A DNA stretch of 64,000 nt from Diplonema papillatum (taxonomy: Eukaryota; Euglenozoa; Diplonemea; Diplonemida; Diplonemidae): contig JAPJBO010000088.1 in assembly GCA_030068145.1 (NCBI GenBank), positions 352,749-416,748 of the forward strand, read 5' to 3'. Position 1 is the first letter of the stretch. The number at the start of each line of letters is the position of its first letter. The position numbers and the translations under genes are program-made. Below the pieces are notes generated by a model that made no database searches, had not been told where the DNA came from, and was given only the letters and a program-made list of their open reading frames with translations. Below, piece after piece: positions 42,720 to 51,700 of the stretch.

Positions 42720-45700
42720 CTAGCCGACCGATGCGGATGTGAGCGAGGAGGTGACCGGGCCGGCCTTGGTGGTGAAGACGTGGTCCTTCCACCGAACCTG
42801 CCCTTTCTCGTCGGTGTTCAGCGGTTCAAGGAGGGCGGGCACTTTTTTCTTCGGCAGCTCCTCCACCGGAGCCAACTCGAGGCCCGTGAACGAGACACGC
42901 TCGCCCACCGTCGCCCCCTCTGGGATGGTGAGCACTTTGACGGCCGCCTTGTCGGCAGTCGACGCACACAGGACCATGCCGCAGGAGTTGACGCCGCGCA
43001 TGTTGGCGGGCTTCAGGTTGCAGAGCACCGCGACCATCTTCCCTTGCAGGTCCTCTGCTTTGTAGTAGTTCCGCAGGCCGCTGACGATGGTTCGCGGCTC
43101 GGCCTCACCGACGTCGATCTTCTCCACGAACAGCGCGTCTGCGTCAGGGTGCGGACCGATCTCCACAATCTTGCCGACCACCACCTGGAACAATCCGGCA
43201 TTGAGCTCCTGCGGTGGTTTGGTAAGGCGTATTAACCACTAGAGGACGGAGGGGTCCCAACGAGATGGGAACGCAAGCAGGCCCGATGGAAACACGAAGT
43301 CAAGCAGGAGAAACGAGCAGCGCAGAATGAGCGCAAGACGGGCACCAAGAGCAGATCAGGACGTTGGGACCGTGCCAAGCCGAAGAAGGAGTCCAAAAGC
43401 GAAGCAACAACACCAACACGGAGACGCAAACCGAAGGCAGCCAAGCGGACCTCCCAGGGCAGGGGGGAACCTGCGGCAGTGAAGTAACGAAGCTCATCCG
43501 AGTGTCCGATGAAACCCCTTGTCAATACCACCCAACGACTGCGACGCGCGTGCGAAATGTCGGACGCTAGCGTCTGTCAAGAGCATGCGTGACTCAGCCG
43601 TGTTTTAAAGGTGAGATGAGAGGCATCGGCTCACTCTGTCAAAGGACCATACCACTAGAGGACGGAGGGGTCGTTGTTGTTGGTGCTTGTTTTTGAGGGA
43701 TGGGAAAGGCAAGAATTTTGCGGTGGTCCGTTGGATTGGTAGTGTGTGCTACCTCCGTTCTTTTACACTCTGCCTTTACACTTGAGGACGGAGGAGGGAG
43801 AGCTAGTTTGTGAAAAGGGCGGGTTCCATGGCAAACCTCATGGTATCCGTTGAGAGCTCGGAGCAGGATTCCTGCCCGATCAAGGACGCATTTCAACGAT
43901 TTGCGTCAGGTCTTTCCAATGAAGCAAACGGCGACTACTTTCGACCATTCTTCTCTTGGCCTCTCACCCGCGAACTTGGCACCCGCGAACTTTCTTGAAT
44001 TAAATACCACTACAGTGGTTGTTCGTCCTTAAGTGTCTAACCGTTCCATGGCAAATCTCAGGTATCCGTTGAGAGGATTCCTGCCCGATCAAGGACGCAT
44101 TCCAAAGATTTGTGTCAGATCTTTCCATAGTTCGTCCGGAAGTGGTTAAACAAATTTGAGAGCCTTCTGGTGGTGTGATTTGTGAGGTTGATTCCGTCAA
44201 CGAACGAGATCTCGACCCTTAAATAGGTGGGCGTGTCGTTGTAGGGGGTGTCTTTTGGCATCGGCGGCTTGCTGCTTACCCGAGACGCGCACTACTTCTT
44301 AAGGGGACTGTGCGCGACTTAGCGCGCGGAAGAGCGAGCCAATAGCAGGTCTGTGATGCTCCTAAATGTCCTAGCTGGCTGCACGCGCACTACACTGACG
44401 CATTAAACGAGTTCGAGAGCCTTCCGGCTACCTATCTTGAAGAGGATGGGAAATATTTTGACCCTTGCGTCGTGATGAGGATCGATGATTGCAAGTATTC
44501 CTTGAATGAGGAATGTAGGCGCAAGTCGTCAGCTGAACTGATCACGTCCCTGCCATTTGTAAACAGGAAGGCTCGCAGACGAGCCGAAAGCCAATGACAA
44601 GTATGCATGGAAATCCTACAACCCGCGAGGCGTCATGCGCTACTTTTGTGAAAGCGTTGCGAGCTTGTCAGAATGGATCAGATAGAAAAAGAGGGTTGTT
44701 CTCGAGATGGCGGCTTGTAAAAGTGTTGCAGATTCGTCGGATATATCAATCTTAAAAAAAAGGACGACGCATACCACTTTAGGCGCGGCAGAGGAAGCCT
44801 CCTTTTGCTGCTTCTTCTTTGCCTTCTTCTCCTCCAAGGACATCGCACGCTCGTCCTTCGCGTTCGTGGGGGCAGCGACACCCTTAAGACGCTCCTGGCG
44901 GGACCAGTGAGACAAATGCGGTCTCTTCGCCTTTCCATCCGGAATGTAGATCATGGCTGTAGTGAAAGGATAACGTGAGGGGGGAAAATGTTTCATGGGT
45001 TTGAAGAGCGCGTGGTGCTTGCACCACTGAGGCCAGGTTATTTAACCGCGGATTTAGTGAAGGATTGTTCAGGAAACGGTCGCGAGCGAGTGAGGGGGGG
45101 GGGGATTTCAGGTGCACGGTGAACTCCAGCCTCTGAGATGGAGTTAAATCGGGAGGTCCGAAAAGGGCATGTGCCACACCCGCAAAGGGCATGTGCCACA
45201 CCCAAAAAGCGGGTGTGGACACCCGCAAAGCGGGTGTGAAAGTTGGATTTTCGTGTGTAAATACCTGTGTTCTCATCAGTATTCTGGACTGACTTTGCCT
45301 TTTCCCCCAATTTCTCAGATACCTGTTCGTTGATACCTCAAGAAAACATCATCCAGCGACTCACACACTCTTCAACACAACGATGCCACTGTCCTCAAGT
45401 ATGCCACGAACACCTGAAGACAACAAGCGGAGGCGCACGATCGAGGGCAGCGACAATGGCAGCGAATGCGAAGCCAACAACACGGCGACCTCCGACGTTG
45501 TCTCCAACTTTATTGAGGCATACCTCGTAAAGAAGGTCGGAGCAGCGATAAGGTTGAGCAGCCTGCGTCAGCTCGTTTCCGAGGTGACAGGAGTAAGACT
45601 CCACAAAAAGTCGCCGTTGTTGATGCAGGTCATCACCGACTTCATAAAGCCGCCGAAATTCACAGCGGGGGAGGTTACAGCAATGACGAAGGCGAGAACC

Positions 45701-48700: not shown

Positions 48701-51700
48701 GTGCGTGGACACGGCACATCCGCCAGCACATGACATAACTTGCTCTGATCGAAGACTTGATCTGTCCTTCCTTCCTTTGTAAGTTCCCACAAAGTTATGC
48801 TATGTTTGTTTTATCGCCGGTTGTTCTCGAGTTCTTTTTCTCCTTGTTGTTGTCCACCTGCTGACGCAAAATCCAGACCGCCGCCACAAGAAATCCCCTA
48901 CAGTCTGCAGTTTGGGGGTCCACACAACGGTGGATAACGGTGGAACCCCACGATCTGTCAAGTTCCGATTCACTGCTGTTGCACTACATAGAGTCTAACA
49001 ATCAAGAAAAGGTAGACACAGCAAAAAACCCCAAAACAAAACCATGGCCCCAGTAACAAGCGAAACTGGCCCAACCCCATGAGAGAAGGGCACTGGGAGT
49101 CGTATTCTGAGGTAATTCAATCAACAAACATAATCCAGAGGGGGTTGAGGTTCAAAAGGAACATGTTGCATTCCAAAAGGAACAAGGCCGGTCCAGAATA
49201 CCGATGAGAACCAAGGTATTTCCACCGAAATCCCCTGTTTCCACACCCGCTTTGCGGGTGTCACATGCCCTTTGCGGGTGTGGCACATGCCCTTTGCGGG
49301 TGTGACCACACCCTCTCCTAGGACCTCCCGATCCACTCCAGCTCAGAGGCTGGAGTTCACCGTGTGGGGAGAAAATCTTGGTTTAATGTTTAGGCAGGAC
49401 ACTGCTCTCATGTTTAGGCAGTATTGTCTGTCTTTTATGCATGTATGATCTCTTCTTGGGAGAAGGGGGATTGCAAGAACGTGCTTAGAATGGTTATGTG
49501 TTCAGCGGGGGGAGGAAATCTTGGGAGAGAGAGAGAGAGAGAGAGAGACGAGTTGGAGTGCAGGGACCATCTCTCCCGAGGAGTTTCCGGTCGCCTCACT
49601 ACTGCCACGTACTTCTAAAGCGGGCGTAGATCGTTCCGTCGTGCAGACCGCGGCCCCGTCACCGAGGATGACGGCGTCGGTGTTGACACAACCGGGGCCG
49701 ATCTGGCAGGCGTTCGTCTTGGTTTAATGTTTGCTAGCATCAGCCATCCATGTTTCTTCTTCGAAGAAGATGTTGTTTCGAAAAGGGTTCCAAAACATGG
49801 TGAGGGGGCTCCCAAAGCAGAGCGGGGAGTGCACTAGTGGCGTTCTTGTGCCCTGTAATGTGGTCGGCCGAGGATTTCCGGCATGTTTACACCAGCACCA
49901 GCGGTTGCCATTTCTCGCTGACGGCCCAAGTCCACGCTCGTACTGTATTCCACGCCGCTAGATGCCACCTTCGCGAAGGGAGCACTCTGCCAGAGACGTG
50001 AGTCTGGTTTTTGTAGCGCTATTCATGGATTAAAGGGCGGTATTTTAAAGTCTCCGGTTGACCGTAGAGGCTTGAGTAGAGAGGAGGGTCGAAGGAGTTG
50101 AACAACGAGAAAGTACAGCACGTTTCGGGTGGTGTGTCACTCGGTTGTGAAACCTTGTGAGGCCCCCCAACGCGTTTAGGGGTGTTTGAGGGGATAACCC
50201 AGGGGGTGTGGCATACTCAAGTGCGGCGTGGTGCTGTCACAGATGTAGTAACCGCGCCTCTCGAACTGCACGATGTCGCCCTTCTTGATCTCTTTGCAGG
50301 CCTCCTCGCCGTAGGCCATGGTCACCGCCTTCGTGTCTTTGTTGACGAACGGGGTGATGTCGTCCACGCCCGGGTCGAGCTTCTTTACGGTGATCAAATG
50401 GTCGTACTCCTGCAGCTCCACGGGCACCTGGTTGGCCTTCGTGTCAGCGAGCCACGTCAGCTTCCATTTGGTTTTCTTGAAGTTGCCCTCCAGGTGCTGC
50501 TTGGCAGTCGCCTTGCTGACGTGCATCTTGTCGTCCGACCGCGCGATGCTGTCGAACACGATGTTGCCCCAGTCCATCAGCGTAACCTCCTCGGAGTCTT
50601 TCACGAGTACCATGTCCTCCTCCTCGACGATCACTTTGTTCGAGTAGTAGAACTTCTTCTGTCCCAAACCGGGGTTCTTCTTGTGGTACGGGCGGGTCGC
50701 TTCCTCGAGGTCTGGCGCCCCGGCAAGATCGATGGGCACGGCTTGGTCGCGAGCGATGACTGTGTACCTGCGCCGAGAGATTTTTAAGGTGAAAGAATGT
50801 GGGGATCCTCTCAAGTCTAAAGTCACCGGGTGATCATCGTCGCAAAGGTTCCGTTGAGGTGTTGGAAACTAGTATGCGTATCGTATCTGCAGTGGTACGT
50901 GTGCTTGTGTGTGTGTGTGTGTGTGTGTGTGTGTGTGTGTGTGTGTGTGTGTGTGTGTGTGTGTGTGTGTGTGTGTGTGTGTGTGTGTGTGTGTGTGTGT
51001 GTGTGTGTGTGTGTGTGTGTGTGTGTGTGTGTGTGTGTGTGTGTGTGTGTGTGTGTGTGTGTGTGTGTGTGTGTGTGTGTGTGTGTGTGTGTGTGTGTGT
51101 GTGTGTGTGTGTGGTGTGTGTGTGTGTGTGTGTGTGTGTGTGTGTGTGTGTGTGTGTGTGTGTGTGTGTGTGTGTGTGTGTGTGTGTGTGTGTGTGTGTG
51201 TGTGTGTGTGTGTGTGTGTGTGTGTGTGTGTGTGTGTGTGTGTGTGTGTGGTGTGTGTGTGTGTGTGTGTGTGTGTGTGTGTGTGTGTGTGTGTGTGTGT
51301 GTGTGTGTGTGTGTGTGTGTGTGTGTGTGTGTGTGTGTGTGTGTGTGTGTGTGTGTGTGTGTGTGTGTGTGTGTGTGTGTGTGTGTGTGTGTGTGTGTGT
51401 GTGTGTGTGTGTGTGTGTGTGTGTGTGTGTGTGTGTGTGTGTGTGTGTGTGTGTGTGTCTTTGCTGGACGATTCGACTTATTTTAGAGCGCGCTCTCATT
51501 TCTCATTGTGTCTTGTCATTTCCAGGGTTCGTTGGCCGACACCGAGTTCACGTTCGGTACGATCGCGTTCTCGGCCCCCCCACGTTCTACTATGTTTGAG
51601 GGTCGGGGAAACGCCAGTGCATTCCGGCGTGCGCAAATATATCGGCGCCTCGGGCACACGGAAAGCAAGGGGCGGTATGGTGGATAAGCGAGGGCGTATG

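Follow-up and report, generated by a model that had tools for sequence, protein, structure and literature searches.

The CMCT clade of DDE transposases is characterised, in the excerpted text of Kojima 2025 (PMC12730594), by three catalytic residues with two conserved cysteines and three conserved histidines, by ends that read CA..TG in most cases and by target duplications of 2-5 bp. The same excerpt describes ESTA, EnSpm-like transposons with TA duplications whose transposase shows HHpred similarity to RAG1, and PMC6004678, in its excerpted text, records a CACTA element that has CAC/GTG ends and duplicates 2 bp. RAG1-type elements outside animals are already in print, because Tao et al. 2022 (PMC9435367) reported that the alga Aureococcus carries an active RAGL transposon that makes 5-bp duplications, and that Transib homologs occur in bacteria, fungi and plants; a literature search on Aureococcus RAG1L returned nothing beyond that paper. 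Here we describe a transposon within a 64,000-nt stretch of Diplonema papillatum DNA (the window), which a preliminary description had placed in the RAG1/Transib superfamily and considered noteworthy as a member outside animals, where it would not be the first.

The element spans 4,250 bp (45115-49364, exactly the extent originally proposed) and is probably a recently, and likely still, active autonomous cut-and-paste CMCT transposon that generates 2-bp pyrimidine-purine (YR) target duplications; RAG1/Transib membership is not shown. It opens with CACGGTG at 45115 and closes with CACCGTG ending at 49364. Its terminal inverted repeats, whose CACGGTG start had been recognised and whose length had been put at about 190 bp, align over about 183 bp, with 149 of 181 ungapped positions identical across the first 184 columns and 28 of 29 within the outermost 30, and contain 22-bp subterminal tandem repeats. 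Two open reading frames (ORFs) lie intact on the + strand; the preliminary description had likewise noted two intact genes. The features are as follows.

45113..45114, no strand: left copy of the target duplication (TG), from the sequence and paired flanks
45115..45297, +: left terminal inverted repeat with the CACGGTG start, holding the terminus-adjoining inverted stretch ACTCCA..TGGAGT and 22-bp subterminal repeats, from the alignment of the ends
45383..46363, +: ORF1, 326 aa, conserved accessory gene, from the ORF and genome matches
46786..48738, +: ORF2, 650 aa, DDE transposase of CMCT type as judged from its residue signature
47083..47085, +: D100 codon, proposed first catalytic Asp, invariant in four subfamilies
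47323..47325, +: D180 codon, proposed second catalytic Asp, invariant, 18 residues ahead of C(2)C
47377..47388, +: C198-C201, C(2)C, proposed zinc ligands, invariant
47881..47895, +: H366-H370, H(3)H, proposed zinc ligands, invariant
47947..47949, +: E388 codon, proposed third catalytic acid, invariant, aligned with the E motif of Transib by a non-significant hhalign match; E385 and E390, likewise invariant, are alternatives
48481..48729, +: predicted C-terminal C2H2-type zinc fingers, likely DNA binding, from Pfam and PDB matches
49183..49364, -: right terminal inverted repeat with the CACCGTG end, from the alignment of the ends
49365..49366, no strand: right copy of the target duplication (TG), from the sequence and paired flanks

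Residue conservation was assessed in an alignment of four ORF2 subfamilies, in which one row is missing roughly its N-terminal 92 residues and one broken copy was joined with X. D100, D180, C198, C201, H247, H366, H370, E385, E388 and E390 were invariant in all four, and the motifs cited in the preliminary description were located at residues 198-201 (CAVC), 245-251 (ALHDIKG), 366-370 (HSLSH) and 383-391 (SDEAEEAEN), the histidine pair reading HSL[SNE]H in every subfamily. This set of D, D, E, C(2)C, H(3-4)H and a further H, together with the CAC..GTG ends and the 2-bp duplication, fits CMCT at the level of sequence. Because CMCT as a whole carries these residues, according to the excerpt of PMC12730594, they are a signature of the clade and alone do not identify RAG1, as which they had been read; the underlying observation, a transposon of DDE type whose residues follow a RAG1-like order and whose ends read CAC..GTG, stands. 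Mimicry of that order by an unrelated DDE superfamily (hAT, Kolobok, piggyBac or Harbinger) would agree with the absence of significant transposase-family matches in Pfam, yet is highly improbable given that the ends, the 2-bp duplication and the full residue set fit CMCT. The C-terminus of ORF2 matched zf-Di19 (residues 597-646, E 2.6e-05) and zf-C2H2 (residues 627-648, E 0.012) in Pfam, both below the curated cut-offs, and the ZBTB17 zinc fingers in PDB (residues 565-648, E 0.00022). NCBIfam matches of ORF2 were far under the cut-offs and were treated as chance.

Copies were sought in the transposon's own genome (271 Mb), where ORF2 had at least 72 scored matches. The same full-length protein is encoded by 15 of the 72, including the window copy, and all 105 pairwise comparisons of these copies show no base difference across 1,953 bp; the remaining matches are shorter, diverged or interrupted by stops. 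Thirteen of the 15 contigs were examined for their terminal flanks, some on the left side only and others on the right side only, and apart from one flank common to C518 and C886 they differ. Most of the identical copies are therefore separate insertions, and the absence of any base difference among them indicates that the transposon moved very recently, which bears out the earlier view of a living or recently living element. Further full copies in this genome, for which the preliminary description had proposed a search, are present. A second ORF2 subfamily, 72-73% identical to the window copy, gave nonsynonymous and synonymous divergences (dN and dS) of 0.169 and 0.940 (NG86), so the transposase is under constraint. 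ORF1 had 123 scored matches, the distant ones mainly at about 62-63, 44-47 and 33% identity, and ORF1 precedes ORF2 on one strand in all four subfamilies (the window copy, C73, C6 and C171); at C171, a single stop and a single frameshift disrupt ORF2.

Two side observations concern relatives of the element. In the distant subfamily at L069 (G000:C171:273500-276000), ORF1 matches of equal score occur in eleven places and the sole ORF2 read is broken; copies of this subfamily may be mobilised by another member's transposase. Further related ends (CACGGTGAAGTCCAGCCCCAGAAGTTGGAG or near it, with ACTA before) lie close to element ends at L006, L033, L046 and L063 and perhaps belong to non-autonomous relatives.

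Target duplications were assessed at the fetched loci using 54 distinct ends that carry the terminal 30-mer with at most four substitutions. A looser pattern found 60 places, from which the damaged or indel-bearing C163, C252 and C925 were dropped, as were, under the stricter pattern, ends of other element families on C518, C886 and C2878. Flanks were TA (32), TG (10) or CA (10) at 52 of the 54 ends and AC and AA at the other two, the ends being partly non-independent (one flank is common to C1203, C1893 and C2235, another to C518 and C886). In the ten elements for which both ends are present, the flanks agree over exactly 2 bp in seven and over 3 bp or more in none; the window copy is flanked by a duplicated TG. 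At C518 the target is the host repeat CCGTTTACTTGCC, which is uninterrupted elsewhere (e.g., L033 and L058), such that an empty target, CCGTT-TA-CTTGCC, can be compared with the filled one, CCGTTTA-element-TACTTGCC. Since the repeat is split there by an element with TA on both sides, TA was duplicated on insertion. Copies with 5-bp duplications, for which the preliminary description had proposed a search, were supported by none of the ten pairs. Separately, the host repeat CCGTTTACTTGCCATCATAG carries insertions at three different YR positions across contigs (L007, L020, L033, L046 and L058-L060), and for that reason it may be a favoured target.

We propose that ORF2 acts as the transposase and that DNA binding through its C-terminal zinc fingers probably takes place at the inverted ends or the 22-bp repeats within them. 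Cleavage at CACGGTG would be carried out by a D-D-E site that is supported by a C(2)C...H(3)H zinc site, and the ends would then be joined at TA, TG or CA with a stagger of 2 bp. ORF1 is probably a helper protein, binding either DNA or the transposase. A Pfam search at E up to 10 gave ORF1 neither a kelch nor a PHD match, though a very diverged propeller could escape such a search; it also had no match in PDB and no relatives in viral_contigs. Of this scheme, the data establish the anatomy of the element, the identity of its copies, the conserved residues, the constraint on ORF2 and the 2-bp duplication; the catalytic roles, zinc binding, the cut-and-paste chemistry and the part played by ORF1 are inferences.

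Similarity of ORF2 to described transposases was assessed against mouse RAG1, HzTransib, one hand-entered Transib sequence and one hand-entered CACTA sequence, the last of which was accepted by its family's Pfam model (E 5.6e-93). Searches with ORF2 and its profile had limited power and gave no RAG1, Transib or CACTA match in Pfam (E up to 10), including none to PF02992 (Transposase_21), and likewise none to these three in PDB. As yardsticks for PDB, the hand-entered Transib reached E 8.8e-05 for RAG1L (6b40) and 0.0014 to 0.4 for RAG1 chains, and mouse RAG1 matched HzTransib at E 0.012. A PF12940 (RAG1) search of the element's own genome returned no ORF2 match and, having no working positive control, shows little. 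Relatives of ORF2 were found in neither viral_contigs nor genome_contigs, and the hand-entered CACTA and Transib queries, run to collect comparison sequences, found none either.

In profile-profile comparison with hhalign, the ORF2 family gave E 0.08 against mouse RAG1 (0.12 with the query reversed), 0.087 against the two Transibs (reversed 0.2), 0.47 against all three together (reversed 0.51) and 0.57 against CACTA (reversed 0.34), compared with 0.0002 for Transib against mouse RAG1 and 0.43 for Transib against CACTA, both accepted CMCT members. The profile match to RAG1 or Transib that the preliminary description had proposed as a check was thus absent from Pfam and PDB and lay at E 0.08-0.47 in hhalign. 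The hhalign match between ORF2 and mouse RAG1 was out of register and was rejected. The best local match to the Transib profile coincides exactly with the catalytic-E motif (ALPL-QCSDEAEEAENGERKA, aligned to IVPIGSLSEEASEARNKDFRR), within a comparison that is non-significant as a whole, and SDEAEEAENGERK is in register with the RAG1/Transib E motif SEExxEARNK (block p 0.0015-0.003, again within a non-significant whole).

We also scored 17-residue blocks around anchored residues, a test with author-chosen anchors, few sequences and several comparisons, in which the ORF2 family reached z 1.65 and 2.21 against the two Transibs (p 0.05 and 0.02), 1.74 against mouse RAG1 (p 0.04) and 1.66 against CACTA (p 0.06). 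For scale, the two Transibs scored 5.12 and 5.62 against mouse RAG1 and 2.28 and 1.90 against CACTA, and mouse RAG1 scored 0.38 against CACTA. The E block points towards Transib (p 0.003 and 0.0015) and the first-D block, which is clipped at its start, towards CACTA (p 0.0045). Taken with the profile results, these values are compatible with, though no proof of, a lineage whose distance from Transib is similar to that of CACTA.

A highly diverged true RAG1/Transib element, in which the stagger changed from 5 to 2 bp and ORF1 is a replacement for RAG2 or a diverged RAG2, would agree with the position of the best local Transib match and of the low block p values on the catalytic-E motif, and with a second gene that lies upstream in the same direction, as in the Aureococcus RAGL (PMC9435367). 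We consider this unlikely, as duplications are of 2 bp, the histidines form an H(3)H pair, the hhalign value of 0.087 (0.2 reversed) and the all-block z scores are far from those linking Transibs to mouse RAG1, and a RAG1 family match is absent from Pfam, with the own-genome search lacking a working control. The original superfamily assignment is not supported on the same points, its cited motifs being those of the wider CMCT clade. A further idea, offered tentatively, is that the element represents a separate, living lineage between Transib/RAG1 and CACTA-type transposases, with a Transib-like acid motif, H(3)H, a 2-bp stagger and a second gene travelling along.

Several results weigh against the assignment to CMCT with 2-bp duplications. 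Named transposase families give ORF2 no statistically significant match in Pfam, PDB or hhalign, and the second-Asp block falls under the null against HzTransib, the hand-entered Transib and mouse RAG1 and at the null against CACTA. No duplication was found in three of the ten pairs (C11, C420 and C1203), nor at C925, which has an indel in its end and enters under the looser pattern, making 4 of 11. YR flanks are favoured, so pair matching is weaker evidence than an empty site, and part of it could be chance arising from that preference; the empty-site evidence is one case.

Elsewhere in the window, fragments of eukaryotic nuclear rRNA are dispersed at 27678-27783, 32295-32374 and 44161-44355 (two large-subunit pieces and one small-subunit piece), with no whole rDNA unit; the small-subunit piece ends about 760 bp ahead of the transposon. 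A long CA/TG dinucleotide tract, with two frames open, occupies 50873-51712.

The CMCT assignment makes this element an apparently active relative, present in identical copies, within the clade that gave rise to RAG1, one that combines a short stagger with a partner gene that is conserved. Cell tests of the element could ask which RAG-type features are old, among them hairpins, stagger length and the partner protein, and an intermediate lineage, if true, would help show the origin of the 5-bp chemistry and partner protein of the RAG1 line.

Among described systems, two lineages with 2-bp duplications are candidates for a narrower placement within CMCT. Mirage generates 2-bp TA duplications. 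ESTA resembles the element in its CMCT residues, its 2-bp TA duplication, the CA..TG ends of the clade and a transposase similar to RAG1 in HHpred, and differs in that the families named in the excerpt of PMC12730594 are from rust fungi, whereas TG and CA are also duplicated here; the comparison is by description only. Membership of ESTA or Mirage in a new host is a reasonable possibility, though short of an even chance. CACTA/EnSpm elements have subterminal repeats and two products, both also features of this element. The hand-entered CACTA sequence shares H(3)H (HLPIH) and the spacing of 18 from the second aspartate to C(2)C, and CAC..GTG ends are common to both; EnSpm duplicates 3 bp, according to the same excerpt (PMC12730594), whereas this element duplicates 2 bp and ORF2 has no PF02992 match. 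Transib (HzTransib, PDB 6pqn) and RAG1/RAGL share with it D-D-E, C(2)C, a histidine pair, an LH motif, CAC ends and, in a comparison that is non-significant as a whole, perhaps a SEEAxEARN-like motif at the last acid, but they duplicate 5 bp rather than 2 and show no significant sequence match. The residue order first likened to RAG1/Transib agrees, with spacing that is near but unequal: the paired histidines are spaced as H(4)H in mouse RAG1 (HKTLAH) and HzTransib (HKLLIH) and as H(3)H here, and the first two aspartates are 80 residues apart here, 99 in HzTransib and 103 in the hand-entered Transib. AanRAGL of Aureococcus likewise has two single-exon genes, the second lying upstream in the same direction, and is set apart by its 5-bp duplication, CACACCC ends and recognisable RAG1 and RAG2 (PMC9435367).

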